Assembly (NCBI RefSeq): GCF_000420945.1
Contig: NZ_ATVX01000004.1
Location: 186,001 to 250,000 of the forward strand
Source of the DNA: Butyrivibrio sp. VCB2006
GTDB lineage: Bacteria > Bacillota > Clostridia > Lachnospirales > Lachnospiraceae
Direction: 5' to 3'
Length of the DNA: 64,000 bases
Shown piece by piece: positions 1,028 through 61,318 of this stretch; position 1 is the stretch's first letter; every line of letters begins with the position of its first letter. Both the position numbers and the translations under genes were made by a program. Below the pieces are notes generated by a model, which saw only the letters and a program-made list of their open reading frames with translations, did no database searches and was not told where the DNA came from.

Positions 1028-1457
1028 GTAATACCATTTCTGCCTCAAATATATATTTGGTATGACAGAAATAAGCTTCTGTCATACTATTTCTGTCTTA
1101 GATATATATTTGTTATTACTGAAATTATTCTCTGTAATACCATTCAGATTTTCTCTGCCTTCTTGGTATTACCGAAATCAATCTCAGTAATACTATTTCT
1201 GTATCAAATGCTCATTTGTTATTACTAAAATTGCTCTCTGTAATACCATTCAGGTCTTCCCTGCCTTCTTGGTATTATCAAAATCAATCTCAGTAATACT
1301 ATTTCTGTATCAGATATCCATTTGTTATTACTAAAAATATTCCCTGTAATACCATTCCTATCTCAGACATCTTTCTGTTATTACTGAAAACTTTCTCGAT
1401 AATACTATTTCTACCATAGACATCTATTTGTTATTACTGAAATAATTCACTGTAATG
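1028..1457. repeat. 53-bp tandem array of inverted repeats (GTAATA / TATTAC half-sites)
   Basis: Eight units of exactly 53 bp follow one another, starting at 1028, 1081, 1134, 1187, 1240, 1293, 1346 and 1399. A last half-site lies at 1452. Each unit opens with GTAATAC and carries TATTAC about 33 bases later. Each TATTAC forms a dyad with the next GTAATA across a 14-base gap, and the eight dyad centres are spaced by exactly 53 bp. Units alternate between two subtypes, so 1134 resembles 1240 and 1187 resembles 1293, giving a 106-bp higher-order repeat. At 1060-1087 both arms have changed together (GTATGACAGAA with TTCTGTCATAC), which keeps the symmetry. A 74-codon open frame crosses the array but looks like a by-product of the repeats. 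Confidence 0.9.
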
Positions 1458-1700: not shown

Positions 1701-4700
1701 TTATAGTCTTGCGATGTCCACAAGGGTAAGGGCCTCTTCTGTGCTGGCGCTCTCAAGGCTCGTTACGAGGGCTCTTGCGGTGTCGAGGGCGGTTATTACG
1801 TTTACGCCGGTTTCGATGGCAGTTCTGCGGATGATGAAACCGTCACGGGTCTTGTCTCGGCCCTGGGTAGGTGTGTCGATAACAAGATCAATCTTGTGGC
1901 CCAGGATAAGGTCGATGACTGTAGGTGATTCCTGGCTTAGGCGGTTAATCTTTCTTGCGGATACACCGTTTTCGTTGAGGGTATCTGCTGTGGATCTTGT
2001 GGCGTAGATGATGTAGCCAAGCTTCTTGTAGCGTCTTGCTATATCAATTACTTCACCCTTATCAGCATCCTTAACTGTGATGATCATCTGCTTGTACTTA
2101 GGAAGCTTAACTCCTGCACCAAGGAAGGCCTTGTACAGAGCTTCATCAAAACTCTTACTGATTCCAAGGCACTCACCTGTACTCTTCATCTCAGGTCCAA
2201 GGCTGATCTCAGCTCCTCTGATCTTCTCAAATGAGAATACCGGCATCTTGATTGCAACGTAACCTACTTCAGGCTGAAGTCCAGGTTTGTAACCAAGGTC
2301 TTTCAGTTTCTTGCCCATCATAACCTGAGCTGCCAGGTCTACGATAGGAATACCTGTAACCTTACTGATATAAGGAACAGTACGGGATGATCTTGGGTTT
2401 GCCTCGATGATGTAAACCTCATCTCCTACTGCTATGAACTGAACATTGATAAGTCCGATTACATGAAGGGCCTTAGCAAGTCTCTTTGTGTATTCTGCAA
2501 TTGTCTCTTTTACCTTGTCAGAAAGAGACTGGGCAGGATATACAGAAATCGAGTCGCCTGAGTGGATACCGGATCTCTCAATATGCTCCATGATACCGGG
2601 AATTACAATATCTTCTCCGTCACATACAGCATCAACCTCTGTCTCAACACCCTGAAGATACTTATCAACAAGGATAGGATGATCCTGAGCATATCTGTTG
2701 ATGATGTTCATGAACTCTTCTATCTCTTCGTCGGAAAGAGCTATCTGCATGCCCTGTCCACCAAGAACGTAAGACGGTCTTACAAGTACTGGGTATCCTA
2801 AGCGATTAGCAACCTCTTTGGCTTCCTCTGCAGTATAAACTGTAGCTCCCTGAGCACGTTTGATCTGTGTCTGTTCAAGGATCTCATCAAAGATTTCTCT
2901 ATCCTCTGCAGCATCAACATCCTTGGCATCTGTTCCGTAGATCTTGACACCCATCTTCATAAGATCCTGAGTAAGCTTAATCGCAGTCTGACCACCAAAC
3001 TGAACAACAGCTCCGTCGGGCTTTTCAAGGCGAACGATATTCTCAACATCCTCAGCTGTAAGTGGCTCAAAGTAGAGCTTATCTGCAATGTCGAAGTCGG
3101 TACTTACAGTTTCAGGGTTGTTATTTATTATGATTGTTTCGTAACCCTCATTCTTAAATGCCCAGGTTGCATGAACTGAGCAGTAGTCAAATTCGATACC
3201 CTGACCGATTCTGATAGGACCTGAACCGAGAACAAGAATCTTTTTCGCTGAGAAGTCCTGATGAGGTTCTGACGAATCTGGACTGAACGTGTCATGGCGA
3301 GCATCGCGAGCGCATGACTTTCCTTGCTTTTGATTCTTAAGTGCAGCTTCATCCTCTGAATCAGGACCGTTGTAAACTGAGTAGTAGTAAGGTGTTTCTG
3401 CTGCAAACTCAGCTGCGCAGGTATCAACAATCTTGAAGGTTGCATGTATGTTGTAGAAATCCCTCAGCTCTTTTAACACAGGAACAGGGAATCTTGTAAG
3501 CCTTGAGATAACTGTATCAGGGTACTCAAGGCGCTTTGCCTCAAGCATAGTATCAAAGCTGATTACCTTCTTGGCATCCTCAAGGTTTCCTGTCTTACCT
3601 GCGGTATTCTTCTCGCCGCAGCGAAGAAGCTTAAGTTCCATCTTGACCAAAGTGTGGAGCTTATCAATAAACCAGTGGTCGATCATGGTGATGTCATGGA
3701 TTTCGTCGTGGCTGATACCGCGGCGAAGAGCCTCAGCGATAACCCAGATTCTCTGGTCATCAACAACCTTAAGTCTCTCTACAAGCTCATCATCATCAAG
3801 GTCTGAGAAGTCATAGCTTGTAAGGCAATCAACGTGCTGCTCAAGGCTTCGGATGGCCTTCATCATAGCACCCTCAAAATTGGTGCAGATACTCATGACC
3901 TCACCGGTAGCTTTCATCTGGGTAGTGAGAGTTCTTTTGGCTGTAATGAACTTATCGAATGGAAGCCTTGGGAACTTAACTACGCAGTAATCAAGAGTTG
4001 GCTCAAAGCTTGCATAGGTCTTGCCGGTAATGGCGTTCTTGATCTCATCAAGAGTGTAGCCAAGGGCAATCTTGGCAGCAACCTTGGCGATAGGATAACC
4101 TGTAGCCTTACTTGCAAGAGCTGATGAACGGCTAACTCGTGGGTTAACCTCAATTACGCAGTACTCAAAGCTTGTAGGGTGAAGGGCAAACTGAACGTTA
4201 CAGCCACCTGTGATCTTAAGCTCGTCGATAATTGAAAGAGCTGCGCTTCTAAGCATCTGGTATTCCTTGTCAGAAAGAGTCTGAGAAGGAGCAACTACTA
4301 TTGAATCTCCTGTATGAACACCTACAGGATCGATGTTTTCCATGTTACAAACTGTAATGCAGTTGCCGAGGCTGTCTCTCATTACCTCGTACTCGATTTC
4401 CTTCCAACCTGCAATACAACGCTCTACAAGAACTTCGTTAGCTCTTGAAAGTCTAAGACCGTTTTCAAGGATTTCTTCGCACTGAGCCTGGTTATAGGCA
4501 ATACCGCCGCCTGAACCTCCAAGGGTATAGGCAGGTCTGAGTACTACCGGGTAACCAATCTTATTGGCAAAAGTAACACCATCAAGTACATTGTGAACAA
4601 CGAGGGATGCTGCAACAGGCTGTCCCAGTTTTTCCATCGTATCCTTGAATTCCTGTCTGTCCTCAGCTTTTCTGATGGTCTCAGCGGTTGTTCCGAGAAG

Positions 4701-5042
4701 CTTAACATTGTGAGTTTTTAAAAATCCTGATTCATCCAGCTCCATTCCAAGGTTAAGACCAGCCTGGCCTCCAAGGGTTGGAAGGATTGAATCCGGTTTT
4801 TCTTTTTCTATTATCTGCTCAAGAACCTTAACTGTCAGAGGCTCAATGTAAACTTCATCAGCTATGTTCTTGTCAGTCATGATGGTAGCAGGGTTAGAGT
4901 TTACAAGTACAACCTCTACGCCTTCTTCCTTAAGTGATCTGCAGGCCTGAGTTCCGGCATAATCGAACTCTGCCGCCTGTCCTATTACAATAGGTCCTGA
5001 ACCGATTACCAGAACCTTTTTAACGTCTTTATTCTTGGGCAT
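1701..5042 (-). CDS. carB: carbamoyl-phosphate synthase large subunit
   Basis: Makes carbamoyl phosphate from bicarbonate, ammonia supplied by CarA, and two ATP, feeding pyrimidine and arginine synthesis. The 1113 residues show the usual duplicated architecture. The N-terminal ATP-grasp half begins KKVLVIGSGPIVIGQAAEFD. The C-terminal half begins KKILVLGSGPIRIGQGIEFD near residue 607. A C-terminal MGS-like allosteric domain follows, with DLVIDTPTQG. The family is normally about 1060-1075 residues. The excess is a polar insertion of roughly 30 residues (about 568-596) in the linker between the halves, encoded by DNA containing a palindrome (3291-3318). The start is ATG three bases after the carA stop, so the two genes are translationally close. 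Confidence 0.97.
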   Translation of the reverse strand: MPKNKDVKKVLVIGSGPIVIGQAAEFDYAGTQACRSLKEEGVEVVLVNSNPATIMTDKNIADEVYIEPLTVKVLEQIIEKEKPDSILPTLGGQAGLNLGMELDESGFLKTHNVKLLGTTAETIRKAEDRQEFKDTMEKLGQPVAASLVVHNVLDGVTFANKIGYPVVLRPAYTLGGSGGGIAYNQAQCEEILENGLRLSRANEVLVERCIAGWKEIEYEVMRDSLGNCITVCNMENIDPVGVHTGDSIVVAPSQTLSDKEYQMLRSAALSIIDELKITGGCNVQFALHPTSFEYCVIEVNPRVSRSSALASKATGYPIAKVAAKIALGYTLDEIKNAITGKTYASFEPTLDYCVVKFPRLPFDKFITAKRTLTTQMKATGEVMSICTNFEGAMMKAIRSLEQHVDCLTSYDFSDLDDDELVERLKVVDDQRIWVIAEALRRGISHDEIHDITMIDHWFIDKLHTLVKMELKLLRCGEKNTAGKTGNLEDAKKVISFDTMLEAKRLEYPDTVISRLTRFPVPVLKELRDFYNIHATFKIVDTCAAEFAAETPYYYSVYNGPDSEDEAALKNQKQGKSCARDARHDTFSPDSSEPHQDFSAKKILVLGSGPIRIGQGIEFDYCSVHATWAFKNEGYETIIINNNPETVSTDFDIADKLYFEPLTAEDVENIVRLEKPDGAVVQFGGQTAIKLTQDLMKMGVKIYGTDAKDVDAAEDREIFDEILEQTQIKRAQGATVYTAEEAKEVANRLGYPVLVRPSYVLGGQGMQIALSDEEIEEFMNIINRYAQDHPILVDKYLQGVETEVDAVCDGEDIVIPGIMEHIERSGIHSGDSISVYPAQSLSDKVKETIAEYTKRLAKALHVIGLINVQFIAVGDEVYIIEANPRSSRTVPYISKVTGIPIVDLAAQVMMGKKLKDLGYKPGLQPEVGYVAIKMPVFSFEKIRGAEISLGPEMKSTGECLGISKSFDEALYKAFLGAGVKLPKYKQMIITVKDADKGEVIDIARRYKKLGYIIYATRSTADTLNENGVSARKINRLSQESPTVIDLILGHKIDLVIDTPTQGRDKTRDGFIIRRTAIETGVNVITALDTARALVTSLESASTEEALTLVDIARL
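3291..3318. repeat. palindrome inside the carB linker insertion
   Basis: GTCATG and CATGAC flank a GC-rich centre that contains a GCGAGC direct repeat. It sits in frame inside the extra linker of CarB, and its GC-rich sequence differs from the surrounding gene. The outer arms resemble those of the palindrome at 6386-6433 (GTCAT...ATGAC), but I cannot show that the two belong to one family. Confidence 0.5.
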
Positions 5043-5045
5043 TTC

Positions 5046-6251
5046 TTATTTCTCCTTGCGAATCATATCTACGAATCTATCAAACAAGTAGCTGCTGTCC
5101 TGTGGTCCCGGGCATGCTTCCGGGTGGAACTGAACTGTGAAAATGTTCTTGCCCACATACGCAAGGCCCTCGTTGGTTCCGTCATTTACATTTATGAAAG
5201 CAGGCTCAGCTATGCTTTTATCTAGTTTGTCCATGTCTACTACATAGCCATGGTTCTGGGATGAAATATATACTCTGCCATTCGTCAGGTCTTTTACCGG
5301 GTGATTTCCACCTCTGTGTCCGTACTTGAGCTTGTAGGTATCCGCTCCTGTAGCAAGGGCCATAAGCTGATGTCCAAGGCATATTGCAAAGATTGGCGTA
5401 TCTGAAGAATAGAGCTTTTTGATTTCCTCGATAACCCCCTTGCAGTCCTTGGGATCTCCGGGGCCGTTGGAAAGCATGATTCCGTCAGGCTTATCCCTTA
5501 AGATTTCCTCTGCGCTGGTATCAAAAGGATAGATTGTTACATCGCACCCTCTTGCAGCAAGGGAATCTGCTATGTTCTTCTTGGCACCAAGATCAAGAAG
5601 GGCAACCTTAAGGCCTGTTCCATTTAGCTCTTTTACGATTGCTGGTCTCTTTTCTCTCTTAGCTAAATCACCTCTAAGTGATGCCTCATAGTCCTCTTTG
5701 TTAAAGACTGCGCTTCCTGAGATAGGACCGTTTTCTGCCAGGTCACTTACGCCCTTTAAGAACTTCTTTTCCTTGCAGGAAACCTTGCTTACAACATCTC
5801 CTGTTGTGTAGGCATGGAGCTTATCTTTTACCTGGTCATAGGTTATGTTCTCATTGGTTGTAAGATACCCGTTCATGGTACCCTTGTCTCGAAGGAGTCT
5901 TACAAGAGCTCTTGTGTCTATTCCCTCAATTCCGGGAATCTCGTACTTGTCCATGAACTCCTGAACTGTCATGTCGCATCTGAAGTTTGAAGCCACATGA
6001 GACAGCTCTCTAACTATGATCGCATCAACCCAGGGTCTGTCTGATTCCATATCATCAAGGCATACCCCGTAATTGCCGATCAGCGGATATGTCATACAAA
6101 CTGCCTGTCCCGCATAGGATGGGTCTGTAAACACCTCCGTGTATCCTGCCATGGATGTGTTGAAGACGATCTCGCTCACCACATCCTTGTCAGCCCCTAT
6201 ATGCTTTCCCGTGAAGACCGTTCCGTCTTCCAGTATTAATCTTGCTTTCAT
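5046..6251 (-). CDS. carA: carbamoyl-phosphate synthase small subunit (glutamine amidotransferase)
   Basis: Hydrolyses glutamine and channels ammonia to CarB. The 401 residues comprise an N-terminal CPSase small-chain domain (MKARLILEDGTVFTGKHIGA) and a C-terminal class I amidotransferase. The nucleophile Cys is in AICLGHQLMAL, and the His/Glu pair is in VQFHPEACPGP. I chose the ATG at 6251 because GGAGG lies just upstream and the protein then starts like other CarA proteins. A longer frame to 6302 lacks such a site and adds unrelated residues. It is followed three bases later by carB. Confidence 0.96.
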   Translation of the reverse strand: MKARLILEDGTVFTGKHIGADKDVVSEIVFNTSMAGYTEVFTDPSYAGQAVCMTYPLIGNYGVCLDDMESDRPWVDAIIVRELSHVASNFRCDMTVQEFMDKYEIPGIEGIDTRALVRLLRDKGTMNGYLTTNENITYDQVKDKLHAYTTGDVVSKVSCKEKKFLKGVSDLAENGPISGSAVFNKEDYEASLRGDLAKREKRPAIVKELNGTGLKVALLDLGAKKNIADSLAARGCDVTIYPFDTSAEEILRDKPDGIMLSNGPGDPKDCKGVIEEIKKLYSSDTPIFAICLGHQLMALATGADTYKLKYGHRGGNHPVKDLTNGRVYISSQNHGYVVDMDKLDKSIAEPAFINVNDGTNEGLAYVGKNIFTVQFHPEACPGPQDSSYLFDRFVDMIRKEK

Positions 6252-6385
6252 AAACTCCTCCGTAAATATACTACTTATTGAGTGATATACGGATTGCTCC
6301 ACTTCGTTCTCGCAATCCTACATTCATTCGGAAATCGATATACTCATTTCATTCGTATATCTTTTTCCTCATGTATGTTCGGTCT

Positions 6386-6442: not shown

Positions 6443-9400
6443 TCACTCAAAGTACTCTACACCACTCTCAAAGATCTTAAGATCCTGCTCACCGTAGATG
6501 TTAATAGCTACGCCGTCGCCTCTACGCTCTGAGTGAGCCATCTTACCAAAGCATCTTCCATCAGGCGAAAGGATACCCTCAACTGCTCTGTAGGATCCGT
6601 TGATGTTCCACTCATCGTCCATGGTTACATTGCCCTCAAGGTCGCAGTACTGGGTAGCAATCTGACCATTTGCAAAGAGCTTGTCAAGGACGTCTGCAGG
6701 TGCAACAAATCTTCCCTCACCGTGAGAAGCAGGGTTTGTATATACTCCGCCAAGAGTAGCCTTAGACAGCCAAGGTGAGTTGTTGGAAACAACCTTGATT
6801 GTAGCCATCTTGGAGATATGTCTTCCGATTGTATTGAAGGTCAGTGTAGGTGAATCTGCAGTCTGGCCTGTGATCTTGCCGTTTGGCACAAGACCAAGCT
6901 TGATCATAGCCTGGAATCCGTTACAGATGCCAAGAGCAAGACCGTCTCTGTTGTGGAGAAGGTCATCTACTGCTGCCTTGATTTCTTCGTTCTGGAAAGC
7001 TGTTGCGAAGAACTTAGCACTTCCGTCTGGCTCATCACCTGCTGAGAATCCGCCTGGGAACATGATGATCTGAGCATTCTCAATGGCTTTCTTGAACTCT
7101 GCTACAGACTCTTCAATATCCTGTGCGTTTCTGTTTCTGAATATCTTGATGTTTACATCAGCACCTGCTCTCTGGAAAGCCTGAGCACTGTCATACTCAC
7201 AGTTTGTTCCAGGGAATACAGGGATGAATACTGTAGGCTTTGCAACCTTGTGCTTGCAAACATATACGCTCTCTGCCTTGTACAGATCTGACTGTACAGG
7301 TGTCTTTTCCTCGTTAACTGTTGAGTGGAATACCTTCTCGAGCTTGTTCTTCCAAGCATCAAGTGCTTCTTCCATGGCAAAAGATACACCGGATACTGTA
7401 AATGTCTTGTCATCAGTAACTTCACCGATTTCTCTTGCACCCTCTACCTTAAGTGCGTCGGCAAGCTTATCTACTGCAACCTCAGCAACGATATCAGCAA
7501 TGTCGTTTGTAAAGAGCTCTTTTGCCTCTACTGAATCTGCAATCTTAACGCCCATTCCGTTACCGAATGCCATCTTGCAAAGAGCTGCTGCAATACCGTA
7601 GCAATCCTCAGCGTAGGCAGATACGATTGCGCCCTTTCTCATGAGCTCTGTGATCTCGCCGTAGAGCTTCATTACCTTGTCATAATCAGGAAGGTCGTAT
7701 TTATCTTTGGCAATCTTGAACTGAACCAGCTTGTTTCCGGCCTTCTTAAGCTCAGGTGTTACTACATCAGAAAGCTTAGCAACATCTACGGCAAAAGAAA
7801 CCAGTGTAGGCGGAACGTTTATCTCATTGAAGGATCCTGACATTGAGTCCTTGCCACCGATTGAAGCGATGCCGAACTTCATCTGAGCATCGTATGCACC
7901 AAGAAGTGCTGTAAGTGGCTGGCTCCATCTTGTTGGATCCTCAGTCATTCTCTTGAAGTACTCCTGGAAAGTGAAGTGAAGCTTTCTGTAATCACCACCT
8001 GTTGCCACGATTCTTGCAACAGACTCGGTTACAGCATAGGCAGCGCCGTGGTATGGGCTCCAGCTTGAAAGATATGGATCAAAACCATAGCTCATCATAG
8101 TTACTGTATCTGTCTTGCCACCAAGAACAGGAAGCTTAGCAACCATAGCCTGTGTCTCCGTAAGCTGGTACTTACCACCATAAGGCATGAGAACTGATCC
8201 GGCTCCGATAGAGGAGTCGAACATTTCTACAAGGCCCTTCTGTGAGCATACATTAAGGTCTGAAAGTTCTGCACGTAAAGCTTCCTTAACATCGCCGCTT
8301 TCCAGAGCCTTCTCAACATCCTTGCTTGCAATCTTGTTAAAATAATTATCATCTGCTACAGGAGCTTCTACCTTAACTGTAGTCTCCTGATGAGCTCCGT
8401 TTGTATCAAGGAAAGATCTCTTTATGTCTACAATCTTGCTGCCTCTCCAGTTAAGGACAAGTCTTGGCTCCTCTGTAACAACAGCAACCTTAACTGCCTC
8501 AAGGTTTTCCTCTGCAGCATAGTCAAGGAACTTGTCAGCATCCTTAGGTGCTACAACAACTGCCATTCTCTCCTGTGACTCAGAGATAGCAAGCTCTGTA
8601 CCATCAAGACCAGCGTACTTTTTAGGAACAAGGTCAAGGTTAATATCAAGTCCCGGAGCAAGCTCACCGATAGCTACTGAAACTCCGCCTGCACCAAAGT
8701 CGTTACACTTCTTGATAAGCTCACTTACTTCAGGTCTTCTAAAGAGTCTCTGCAGCTTACGCTCTGTAGGAGCATTACCCTTCTGTACCTCTGCACCGCA
8801 GCTTGTAAGTGACTTGCTGTCATGAGCCTTGGAAGAACCTGTTGCTCCACCGCAGCCATCACGACCTGTTCTGCCGCCAAGTAGGATAATGATGTCTCCC
8901 GGATCAGCGCTTTCTCTGATTACATGCTCCTGTGGAGCAGCACCCATAACTGCACCAATCTCCATTCTCTTGGCAACGTAGCCTGGGTGATAAACTTCTT
9001 TTACATAGCCGGTAGCAAGACCAATCTGGTTACCGTATGATGAATAGCCGCTTGCAGCGCCACGTACAAGTTTTTTCTGAGAGAGCTTACCCTTCATGGT
9101 CTCTGCAACAGGAACTGTAGGATCTGCAGCGCCGGTTACACGCATAGCCTGGTATACATAGCCTCTTCCTGAAAGCGGATCTCTGATCGCACCGCCAAGA
9201 CATGTAGCAGCGCCACCGAAAGGCTCAATCTCAGTAGGATGGTTGTGAGTCTCGTTCTTGAAGAATACAAGCCAGTTCTCAGTAACAGGACCATTGCCGT
9301 AGTCAACTTCAACCGGAACAACTACTGTACAAGCGTTGTTCTCTTCAGACTCTTCCATGTCTGTGAGCTTTCCGTCTTTTTTAAGCTTCTTCATTCCCAT

Positions 9401-10249
9401 AAGAGCGATGTCCATGAGGGAAATGAATTTCTCTTTTTTCTTATCATCAGTTGTGTAAAGCGCATCTCTGCTTGCAAGGTAGTCTTCGAAGGAAGCCTTG
9501 ATTGGCTCAGCATAGAAGCCCTCTTCAAAAGAGATGTCTTTAAGCTCAGTTCCAAAAGTAGTATGACGGCAGTGATCTGACCAGTACGTATCAAGAACTC
9601 TGATCTCTGTCATTGAAGGATCACGCTTCTCGTCACCTGCAAAATACTGCTGAATCCATTTGAAATCGTTGAAGGTCATGGCAAGTCCAAGACTGTTGTA
9701 CAACTCTCTTAGCTTATCCTCTGCCATATCCTTGAAGCCATCAAAGATTTTGACATCTTCAGGATCATCATAGGTTTCAACAAGAGTCTGTGGCTTATCA
9801 TCTGAAGCTATACGTGAATCAACAGGGTTCATTGTATAGTCCTTGATCTTCTCAAGCTCTTCGTCTGAAATATTGCCGATAAGCATATAGGTAACTGCAG
9901 TCTTGATAACAGGCTCTTCGTCACCCTTTATAAAGCGAACGCACTGCTCGGCTGAATCTGCTCTCTGATCGAACTGTCCAGGAAGCGCCTCGATGCTAAA
10001 CACTCTTGCTCCCTCTGGAATTTCGATGTTTTCTCTATATAGAATGTCAACCGGTGGCTCAGAAAAAACAGTACCAACAGCCTTCTCAAATACTTCATCA
10101 GATACGTTTTCCACATCGTAGCGGATGAAAATTCTAACCTTTTCAACGGTCTTGATTCCAAGGTATCCTGAGATCTCATGTCTGAGTTCTCTTGCCTTTC
10201 CTGCGTAAGGTTCTTTCTTTTCTACGTAGATTCGTCTTACAGTGCTCAT
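6443..10249 (-). CDS. purL: phosphoribosylformylglycinamidine synthase, single-chain type
   Basis: Fourth step of purine synthesis: FGAR, glutamine and ATP give FGAM. The 1268 residues contain all parts in one chain. These are an N-terminal PurS-like region, the central linker (DTYWSDHCRHTTFGTEL), two AIR-synthase-like halves (KNETHNHPTEIEPFGGAAT and GGKDSMSG), and a C-terminal class I glutaminase. The glutaminase nucleophile Cys is near residue 1109 in LGICNGFQAM, with SHGEGRF near the end. This differs from the split PurL/PurQ/PurS of Bacillus. The start ATG follows GAGGAG. It runs in the same direction as carA-carB, but the 190-base gap with several palindromes suggests separate control. 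Confidence 0.96.
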   Translation of the reverse strand: MSTVRRIYVEKKEPYAGKARELRHEISGYLGIKTVEKVRIFIRYDVENVSDEVFEKAVGTVFSEPPVDILYRENIEIPEGARVFSIEALPGQFDQRADSAEQCVRFIKGDEEPVIKTAVTYMLIGNISDEELEKIKDYTMNPVDSRIASDDKPQTLVETYDDPEDVKIFDGFKDMAEDKLRELYNSLGLAMTFNDFKWIQQYFAGDEKRDPSMTEIRVLDTYWSDHCRHTTFGTELKDISFEEGFYAEPIKASFEDYLASRDALYTTDDKKKEKFISLMDIALMGMKKLKKDGKLTDMEESEENNACTVVVPVEVDYGNGPVTENWLVFFKNETHNHPTEIEPFGGAATCLGGAIRDPLSGRGYVYQAMRVTGAADPTVPVAETMKGKLSQKKLVRGAASGYSSYGNQIGLATGYVKEVYHPGYVAKRMEIGAVMGAAPQEHVIRESADPGDIIILLGGRTGRDGCGGATGSSKAHDSKSLTSCGAEVQKGNAPTERKLQRLFRRPEVSELIKKCNDFGAGGVSVAIGELAPGLDINLDLVPKKYAGLDGTELAISESQERMAVVVAPKDADKFLDYAAEENLEAVKVAVVTEEPRLVLNWRGSKIVDIKRSFLDTNGAHQETTVKVEAPVADDNYFNKIASKDVEKALESGDVKEALRAELSDLNVCSQKGLVEMFDSSIGAGSVLMPYGGKYQLTETQAMVAKLPVLGGKTDTVTMMSYGFDPYLSSWSPYHGAAYAVTESVARIVATGGDYRKLHFTFQEYFKRMTEDPTRWSQPLTALLGAYDAQMKFGIASIGGKDSMSGSFNEINVPPTLVSFAVDVAKLSDVVTPELKKAGNKLVQFKIAKDKYDLPDYDKVMKLYGEITELMRKGAIVSAYAEDCYGIAAALCKMAFGNGMGVKIADSVEAKELFTNDIADIVAEVAVDKLADALKVEGAREIGEVTDDKTFTVSGVSFAMEEALDAWKNKLEKVFHSTVNEEKTPVQSDLYKAESVYVCKHKVAKPTVFIPVFPGTNCEYDSAQAFQRAGADVNIKIFRNRNAQDIEESVAEFKKAIENAQIIMFPGGFSAGDEPDGSAKFFATAFQNEEIKAAVDDLLHNRDGLALGICNGFQAMIKLGLVPNGKITGQTADSPTLTFNTIGRHISKMATIKVVSNNSPWLSKATLGGVYTNPASHGEGRFVAPADVLDKLFANGQIATQYCDLEGNVTMDDEWNINGSYRAVEGILSPDGRCFGKMAHSERRGDGVAINIYGEQDLKIFESGVEYFE

Positions 10250-10355: not shown

Positions 10356-10943
10356 TTAGTCTTCGGGGACTAATCCCTCTAACACATACATTAATTCTCT
10401 ATCAATGGCTTCTTCTGTAATAGAACAAGTCTTACTCATGATCTTGAGTCCTTCCACCACGTACATTAAATTGCGGGCACAACCAAGAGGGTTCTCGCAA
10501 TAAAACTCATCATTCTCGATTCCATTTTCAATTAATTTCTGAATAATGGTAACCGCTGTATCAAATTGATTCTTAAGTGGATTATCTTTTGCAGAAACTT
10601 TATGAACGGAAAAATATTCATAAGTGGCTACAGTAAGATTGTTCTTTTTTCTGAGGATTTCTTTTTTCTGCTCCTTGAGGAAAAGAGCAAGCATATCACC
10701 TGCAGAAGCATCGCCGGAAAGGGCTGCTACAACTGCCTCTTCATCATCCTCATCATGTTCATCGGCAAGAACTGCCATGAAAATTTCTGCAGTACTGGAA
10801 AAATAGAGATAAAGACCCCCGCGGCTGATGTCACAGGCATCTACAATGTCCTTCATAGTTACATTCTTATAACCTTTTTCGGAAAAAACTGTTCTGGCCT
10901 TCTCCAGAATGTATTTCCTCTTCTGTGTGGACTTCTCTCCCAT
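10356..10943 (-). CDS. TetR/AcrR-family transcriptional regulator
   Basis: 195 residues. The N-terminal helix-turn-helix reads ARTVFSEKGYKNVTMKDIV then CDISRGGLYLYF, the classic TetR DNA-binding region (residues about 12-58). The rest is a helical ligand-binding/dimerisation domain of no recognisable specificity. It ends in a hairpin terminator, and a CTGACTAGTCAG palindrome lies between it and purL. No transporter gene is adjacent, so its target is unclear: it may control itself, purL or genes elsewhere. The hypothetical gene ending 35 bases upstream may be in the same transcript. Confidence 0.9.
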   Translation of the reverse strand: MGEKSTQKRKYILEKARTVFSEKGYKNVTMKDIVDACDISRGGLYLYFSSTAEIFMAVLADEHDEDDEEAVVAALSGDASAGDMLALFLKEQKKEILRKKNNLTVATYEYFSVHKVSAKDNPLKNQFDTAVTIIQKLIENGIENDEFYCENPLGCARNLMYVVEGLKIMSKTCSITEEAIDRELMYVLEGLVPED

Positions 10944-42631: not shown

Positions 42632-42928
42632 TTATGTTGGTTTTCGATTTTTGCCTCGCCAGCATAATAATTTGTAAGTTCATTTATGTTAATTGGAGCC
42701 TTCTCTTCTGCTAACATAAGACTTTGTTAGACTATTTATGTTAGATACATCTTTTTATCCAGCTAGCATAAATACTTAATAAGCATTTTATGCTAGCTGA
42801 GAGACTTCCTTGTTTTTAACATAATTTCAACGCAATTTCTTTATGTTAGCTACGATTTTTTCTCATATGAGCATAATCTCAGCTCAATTTCATTATGTTA
42901 CCAGAACTATATTCTTATACCAACATAA
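42632..42928. repeat. 52-bp-period array of inverted repeats (AACATAA / TTATGTT half-sites)
   Basis: TTATGTT-type half-sites begin at 42632, 42684, 42736, 42788, 42841 and 42893. AACATAA/AGCATAA-type half-sites begin at 42661, 42713, 42765, 42818, 42870 and 42922. Both series have a 52-53 bp period. Five complete dyads have arms of 6-12 bp around a gap of about 14-16 bases. At 42762-42797 the arms read AGCTAGCATAAA and TTTATGCTAGCT, a perfect 12-bp pair in which both arms have changed together. Sequences between the sites are poorly conserved. No coding potential is seen. Confidence 0.88.
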
Positions 42929-61175: not shown

Positions 61176-61318
61176 TTTTTCTCCGATTATTATCCTCTTA
61201 GTATTATTCAAATAATTCCCCATAATACCAAAAGCTTATTTCCAGACAGCTTGTTATTACATGGATTATATTACTCGTATTATTATCACTCATTTCTTAA
61301 TCATATAATTCTATTTGG

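Follow-up and report, generated by a model that had tools for sequence, protein, structure and literature searches.

Helically phased dyad arrays and a linked family of predicted nucleases in Butyrivibrio and related bacteria

The window and its dyad arrays

The window, as the whole 64,000-nucleotide stretch of the Butyrivibrio sp. VCB2006 genome analysed here is called, carries near its start an array of short dyads of the class GTAATAMCA/TGKTATTAC (1028-1460). The array lies about 240 bp past the 3' end of carB, the minus-strand gene for the carbamoyl-phosphate synthase large chain (1701-5042), and its other neighbour is a minus-strand ORF running off the end of the window. A terminator-like hairpin with a perfect 16-bp stem (1614-1649) stands just after carB. 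Clostridiales-1 RNA (RF01699; 6281-6447, 104.6 bits), the sole match in the window to Rfam at the gathering threshold, lies between ORFs 5046-6302 and 6443-10249, which by eye we take to be carA-like and FGAM-synthase-like, respectively. The ORFs across the array are short (74, 47 and 42 aa). In what follows this Butyrivibrio genome is G000, and G-numbers denote the 79 genus genomes that were compared.

Within the array, GTAATAMCA and TGKTATTAC half-sites alternate at exactly 30 and 23 bp, the sum of 53 bp being five helical turns, and form eight outer dyads (F-N21-R) with an exact 53-bp step. Tandem repeat analysis with TRF (1028-1464) returned a period of 53 with 8.2 copies and one of 106 with 3.8 copies. 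A sequence-only reading of the locus had described eight TATTAC-N14-GTAATA dyads at a 53-bp step, and this description is confirmed: four are exact (1114, 1167, 1220 and 1326), three have a change in one arm (1273, 1379 and 1432), and in the dyad at 1061-1086 both arms are altered, to TATGAC/GTCATA. The distances of 20 and 33 bp given there likewise hold as start distances of 6-mers (30 and 23 bp when 9-mers are counted) along the entire array, which is free of indels. Units of the array are 67% alike at period 53, with only the half-sites conserved, and a CRISPR array, with its near-identical repeats and unique spacers, was rejected on these grounds. Conserved half-sites and diverged interiors are found in the 53-bp arrays generally, the units of which share a common ancestry seen as a 106-bp super-period.

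Two further groups of half-sites are present in the window. A second phased array, of the class TTATGTT/AACATAA (42632-42928), has spacings of 29 and 23 bp (once 30) and a period of 52-53, and its half-site is that of an array 5' of a nuclease paralogue elsewhere in G000 (C2:294562-295209). At the gap between two minus-strand ORFs, three half-sites of the first class (61199-61260; an R half-site followed by an F-N21-R dyad, with spacings of 23 and 30 bp) make up a short remnant or minimal site. No known member of the array-linked nuclease family described below is encoded in the 64-kb window, and the linkage is invisible from it.

The first array is bracketed by a left hairpin (881-999) and a right one (1481-1608), the left being an inverted copy of the right (78% over 134 bp). 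Inverted long hairpins bracket two of the tested array loci with at least three dyads, namely this array and one locus in G031 (L221, approximately 7226-7420 and 7690-7900), and a copy of the left G031 hairpin was found elsewhere in G001 (L379, approximately 10393-10502). These hairpins are perhaps a separate palindromic element.

Distribution and spacing of dyads in the genus

Similarity and pattern searches, with the stretches read, placed first-class arrays of at least three dyads at eight loci in G000 (C1:2.85 kb, C1:248 kb, C4:15, 17, 187 and 268 kb, C5:23 kb and C29:16 kb), and isolated dyads at C4:247 kb, C5:32 kb and C7:164 kb. The interiors of the arrays vary, and the half-sites and distances barely do. 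Dyads of the class were sought in the genus genomes in two ways. A profile of sequence alone (an 85-bp unit from 43 units, 12 of them also entered on the opposite strand) had matches in 9 of the 79 genomes at E <= 1e-3 (G000, 66; G031, 46; G001, 10; G060 and G009, 5 each; G014, 4; G065 and G050, 3 each; G011, 2). A free-gap pattern (TAATAMCA N10-32 TGKTATTA), applied to all 79 genomes alongside a control pattern, gave 33 matches in G060 (control 0), 21 in G000 (1), 13 in G050 (2), 12 in G065 (0), 9 in G009 (1), 4 in G068 (1), 4 in G029 (0), 2 in G031 (1), none in G001 (0), and 0-2 elsewhere; among the matches listed for the enriched genomes, the gap was 19-22 with few exceptions. The class is clearly enriched in seven of the 79 genomes, G000 included, with the pattern identifying G060, G000, G050, G065 and G009 and the profile identifying G000, G031 and G001. 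Dyads of G060, G065, G050 and G009 are grouped and are not tandem copies, and the last three genomes share a stereotyped element, about 160 bp long, of three dyads.

The close strain G001 has no array at two of the array loci found in G031. At L089 the G001 junction retains one half-site, and the difference therefore reads as loss of the array. At L221, flanks that are 95% and 92% identical enclose 532 bp in G031 versus 47 bp in G001, where no half-site was seen by inspection, and the difference, compared without an outgroup, is either gain or loss.

Several other candidates and observations arose in these searches. A family-wide element built on the first half-site was rejected, as perfect GTAATACCA/TGGTATTAC pairs occurred in just 3 of 397 family genomes, one of which has a 7-bp gap and looks accidental. 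Profile matches in G014 and G011 (C45:98268 and C91:47403; L116 and L103) included a lone dyad, its GTAATACTA/TGGTATTAC arms at 27-bp spacing, which by eye is directly upstream of a gene starting MAKAGRPKKDD; it is perhaps the operator of a small DNA-binding protein and, being unlike the rest, was set aside as a member of the array class. In G041, a 57-bp tandem repeat with internal dyads (L093 8847-9050, contig C1) has 3.6 copies that are 91% alike, and the surrounding 20-kb stretch holds no full-length member of the nuclease family. In 17 of 20 contexts with codirectional neighbours, the A-rich strand of the array was also the coding one for these genes, with the skew near zero in several.

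Centre-to-centre steps in the non-tandem genomes G060, G065, G050 and G009 were mostly 42-44, 52, 63-65.5, 73.5-75.5 and 83-85 bp. The 58 steps had a best period of 10.55-10.6 bp (R 0.867), and the 20 distinct step values of the same four genomes gave R 0.83, a level reached at 10.3-10.7 bp by none of 5000 uniform draws. Elements of G060 differed by one whole turn (52 versus 63 bp, 75 versus 85 bp). Furthermore, the dominant steps of 39 gene groups, with one step taken per group of near-identical genes, gave R 0.78 at 10.3-10.7 bp, a value that none of 5000 random draws reached, with a broad best period of 10.2-10.5. These steps were distributed as 52-54 bp (13 groups), 61 (1), 63-64 (6), 71-75 (12), 81-84 (4) and 104-106 (3); two groups, with dominant steps of 61 and 71 bp that each derive from two steps, were off the whole-turn pattern. 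A set of 27 words gave R 0.80 under a crude distinctness rule, by which rows on the pattern (75, 64 and 53, for example) and off it (61 and 71) were dropped, whereas one locus contributed two words. Steps cluster at whole helical turns across genomes and half-site classes, which is duplex-DNA logic. Random spacing at homologous loci, which according to the sequence-only reading would have made the phasing accidental, was looked for, and the outcome did not refute the phasing. The cooperative DNA scaffold that the same reading had offered as one alternative is supported: in different genomes and half-site classes alike the spacing is quantised in helical repeats, and the difference between related elements is a whole number of turns.

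The array-linked nuclease family

A gene for a protein of about 255 aa with a predicted PD-(D/E)XK nuclease domain recurs beside the arrays. A tblastn search of 71 loci (1.19 Mb), mostly chosen for their arrays, recovered seven full-length homologues, one each in G000, G001, G009, G031, G050, G060 and G065, and one further match to the nuclease part only (L071). In these array-biased loci, an array was located 16-137 bp 3' of the gene in seven of seven cases. Because the choice of loci biases this count, all 79 genomes were searched for the family, and it was found at E <= 1e-25 in 67 of them, with up to nine members per genome. One clade stands apart, with seven members at 428-448 bits and the next at 332, and the genomes that encode it are the same seven that are enriched in dyads (Fisher 3.4e-10; 1.2e-8 with G068 and G029 scored as dyad-positive without the gene, and 4.1e-8 with G014 added too). 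First-class dyads without the clade comprise four TAATAMCA dyads each in G068 and G029 and a two-dyad group in G014 (C55, step 53.5); dyads in genomes without the matching gene may represent remnants, exceptions or sites that other paralogues target. The clade member of G000 (C4:15541-16326) is encoded on the same contig as the window array, about 171 kb from it, with a first-class array 46 bp on its 3' side and another about 1.2 kb off on the 5' side, beyond a PAP2-family gene (arrays at L065 15080-15492 and 17476-17936).

The representative protein matched no family in Pfam or NCBIfam, stray weak matches being confined to 1-2 of 47 members, and no transposase family was matched in Pfam by the 47 members at E <= 0.01. 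A structure model (pLDDT 93.3, pTM 0.74) assigns residues 131-253 to a PD-(D/E)XK domain, with VIA Z scores, middling for that measure, to Bax1 (8.2), 3hrl (8.0) and Vsr (7.1), and Foldseek alone gave no match at E <= 0.001; the core fold is that of PD-(D/E)XK enzymes in the model. The C-terminal half resembles PDC-S68 in padloc (E 6e-27 to 1e-30), and PHROG endonuclease and Holliday-junction-resolvase profiles matched weakly in 9 and 8 of the 47 members, respectively; these nuclease profiles agree with the modelled fold. The N-terminal domain, comprised of a helix, three strands and a long helix, has no clear structural relative, and a DNA-reading domain was accordingly not identified. Its best structural matches were prefoldin-like helix hairpins at middling Z, the top one a mitoribosomal protein (Z 8.4), a likeness taken as a common arrangement. 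The presumed active-site residues E151, E168, D181, E196 and H197 (L226 numbering) are invariant over 47 paralogues. In two close pairs dN/dS was about 0.14 (0.083/0.598 and 0.037/0.259), showing purifying selection on the nuclease gene in these pairs; the gene is therefore kept. A single query against 50,697 phage records and 72,556 plasmid records found none that covers 80% of the protein.

Paralogue-specific half-sites were stated as a prediction before testing. In the 3' flank of a G014 paralogue, TGATGC sites are spaced at 30 and 22 bp, and the TGATGCMA half-site, first read from this flank, was then searched as TGATGCMA N10-32 TKGCATCA. The pattern had 12 matches in G014 (control 0), one of them with an odd gap (C57), and 0-2 in the other 78 genomes; TGATGCMA arrays of G014 were read at C41, C59 and C43. 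A TTATGTT/AACATAA array lies on the 5' side of the G000 paralogue at C2:294562-295209, and such an array is also 5' of a paralogue in G010. The TTATGTT free-gap pattern gave 14 matches in G000 (13 with the same gap) and 7 in G010, with controls at 1, and 0-3 matches elsewhere; G054 has two good TTATGTT dyads (step 52) and no nuclease at E <= 1e-25. Three half-site classes are thus matched to paralogues. Hand labels of the half-site class were given to 23 of 50 rows, and the distribution of the class on the protein tree needed 8 changes, the minimum possible, and none of 200 shuffles was as low. The first class needs two changes, the TGATGC row falling inside it.

Relatives beyond the genus were obtained by scanning GTDB contigs with the 47-row alignment, and the best 80 of at least 574 were kept; their records are named as Lachnospiraceae, Ruminococcaceae, Oscillospiraceae, Mageeibacillus, Treponema and others, and some are Butyrivibrio loci again. 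Clear arrays were found beside several of them, with half-sites ATAGGAT (31/22), CTATGCC (34/29, on both sides), GGGACTA (27-28/26), GAATACA (31/21), GCACCCA (34/41) and ACTTCGG (48/26). Flanks were then scored by a strict rule that requires 6 or more occurrences of a 7-mer and its complement within 700 bp and 3 or more equal steps. The rule supersedes a 450-bp flank test on 50 loci that was too weak for short arrays, and short elements like the G065 ones still escape it. Strict arrays were present in 40 of 243 nuclease flanks versus 2 of 728 control flanks (p 3.5e-23), the controls being Butyrivibrio stretches only, which limits the comparison for the GTDB set. Both positive control flanks are the 57-bp repeat of G041 (L093), and base-shuffled nuclease flanks had none (0 of 1215). 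By locus, 36 of 130 passed (16 of 50 from the genus search and 20 of 80 from GTDB), and some of the 94 without a strict array have shorter arrays by eye. The 130 loci include near-copies and form 104 groups at 80% DNA identity; with near-copies removed, the number passing was 33 of 196 by flank and 29 of 104 by gene group (p 2.5e-21). The side of the array varies (25 of 122 5' flanks and 15 of 121 3' flanks).

Interpretation and comparison with known systems

The best explanation, with a probability of about 0.72, is that the arrays are cognate binding lattices for members of the nuclease family, with paralogue-specific half-sites and a shared spacing. The first array would be a lattice of sites for the clade member encoded at C4:15541-16326. 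Two copies of the protein would bind one dyad, whose 9-bp half-sites lie three turns (about 30 bp) from each other, and further dimers would bind neighbouring dyads whole turns away, placing all of them on one face of the DNA; each paralogue would read its own half-site, under a spacing rule common to all. A nuclease acting at the arrays may create, spread or lengthen them through break and repair. Gene and arrays behave as a RAYT-REP pair does, with a gene-adjacent repeat, dispersed intergenic copies and a species-specific repertoire. Binding to the half-sites, oligomerisation and array dispersal through cutting and repair are all inferred, and dispersal by the nuclease is tentative, at somewhat short of even odds.

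The main rival, which appears unlikely, is an architectural or regulatory scaffold in which protein-bound arrays organise the chromosome or regulate or insulate their neighbours, with cutting irrelevant or lost and gene adjacency reflecting autoregulation. A helical lattice would fit a nucleoprotein filament or loop, and both the coding-strand bias of the A-rich strand (17 of 20 codirectional contexts) and the frequent 5' position of gene-adjacent arrays are consistent with such a role. However, a pure scaffold would not need the presumed active-site residues that are invariant over the 47 paralogues, two array loci of G031 are without an array in G001, and half-sites differ among paralogues, unlike those of a conserved regulon. 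A role in defence or self-marking, with foreign DNA as the target of the nuclease and chromosomal arrays serving to titrate, store or restrain the enzyme, is improbable. PDC-S68, a candidate phage-defence protein, does have a C-terminal part that the nuclease domain resembles (E down to 1e-30), but the similarity is limited to that domain, and the one query of phage and plasmid records found none covering 80% of the protein.

Slightly less probable again is a transcript of tandem hairpins that is processed or bound as RNA. The half-sites are mutually complementary, arrays often lie between codirectional genes with the A-rich strand coding, and dyads of G065, G050 and G009 have matching arms at position 8 (p 0.001), with anti-matching at position 1 and interiors that are slightly complementary (z 2.0, p 0.03). 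In the 86 outer dyads of G000, G031 and G001, however, arms covaried at 0 of 9 positions, and in the 65 inner dyads a matching-arm excess was seen at 1 of 9 (position 3, p 0.02, uncorrected); interiors compared with shuffled pairs had no complementarity in the 53-bp arrays of these genomes (z -1.1) or in G060 (z -1.5). Because arms do not generally covary, RNA hairpins are unlikely; whole-turn DNA spacing over many classes would also be left unexplained, and no Rfam family matched the array at the gathering threshold. The tandem-hairpin transcript suggested in the sequence-only reading is rejected on these results, save for the weak signal in G065, G050 and G009. The joint change of both arms noted there at 1060-1087 is true of that dyad and is not general, and selection on the symmetry stands in the sense of two conserved half-site copies and falls in the sense of compensatory change. 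Neutral tandem duplication, with the spacing inherited from a founder unit, is scarcely credible. The 53-bp units do share ancestry, as the 106-bp super-period attests, yet the non-tandem dyads of G060, G065, G050 and G009 are still whole turns apart (20 distinct values, R 0.83, 0 of 5000 draws), unrelated half-site classes obey the same spacing rule, and half-sites are conserved while interiors diverge. Duplication alone is ruled out by the non-tandem genomes.

Nuclease-linked phased dyad arrays look like an undescribed two-part genetic system of gut and rumen bacteria, and among the titles and abstract openings listed by full-text searches of open-access literature there was no account of such phased arrays or of a nuclease-array link. 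In its broadest form, for which the odds are about even, the system would be widespread in Clostridia and relatives, small predicted nucleases building and spreading arrays on which dimers stack along one face at 4, 5, 6, 7 or 8 turns. Specificity would evolve freely while geometry stays fixed, so that the pairs would amount to a natural code linking each DNA-reading protein to its repeat. The arrays would be duplex-DNA counterparts of REP elements. The whole-turn lattice makes a strong and simple prediction on binding mode, and the many paralogue/half-site pairs provide material for decoding DNA recognition by these proteins. Because several matched pairs can occur in a single genome, the protein-repeat link is testable at once. 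A function is also suggested for a common protein family that has no Pfam or NCBIfam name.

Iteron-Rep and other helically phased multi-dimer operators also have repeated short sites on one helix face and cooperative binding, but they sit at one origin or promoter, whereas the arrays described here are scattered across several loci and have paralogue-specific half-sites beside a nuclease gene. Vsr, Bax1 and related PD-(D/E)XK nucleases have the fold modelled for residues 131-253 (Z 7.1 and 8.2 for Vsr and Bax1), although scores are middling and there is no common sequence family; we know of no link of Vsr, Bax1 or their relatives with repeat arrays. PDC-S68 has a similar C-terminal nuclease domain (E 6e-27 to 1e-30), but its model spans about 1220 positions, compared with about 255 aa in the array-linked proteins, and the N-terminal part is different.

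The closest likeness is to the RAYT (TnpA-REP) enzymes and their REP, REPIN and BIME repeats. To our knowledge, the RAYT enzyme is the one well-described maker of such dispersed intergenic repeats, and the nuclease family, if the reading is true, would be a second, unrelated one in common rumen and gut bacteria. In RAYT-REP systems (PMC2817692, PMC3116915, PMC8266576), as in the present arrays, a chromosomal nuclease gene stands beside cognate repeats with dispersed intergenic copies, the repeat class tracks the protein, repeat abundance tracks gene presence, orientation alternates, and strains vary. A break-and-repair type of copying, of other chemistry, has been proposed for RAYT and REP (PMC2817692). 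The differences lie in the enzyme, which for RAYT is of the HUH tyrosine kind, and in the repeats, REPs being single strands folded into hairpins, whereas the array-linked proteins have a PD-(D/E)XK model fold and the arrays have arms mostly without covariation and duplex spacing in whole turns. The system works like RAYT-REP yet is not a member, because the enzyme kind and the hairpin feature both differ: the 47 members gave no transposase family and a modelled PD-(D/E)XK fold at 131-253 in place of an HUH/Y1 tyrosine transposase (IS200/IS605), and a hairpin palindrome with compensatory changes was looked for and left a weak positive signal only in G065, G050 and G009. Gene presence goes with cognate repeats, the exceptions being G054, G068, G029 and G014, and cognate repeats flank the gene in seven of seven members of the TAATAMCA clade and, with the strict rule applied, in 29 of the 104 gene groups. 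In G000, arrays lie on both sides of the nuclease gene, as REPs flank RAYT genes.
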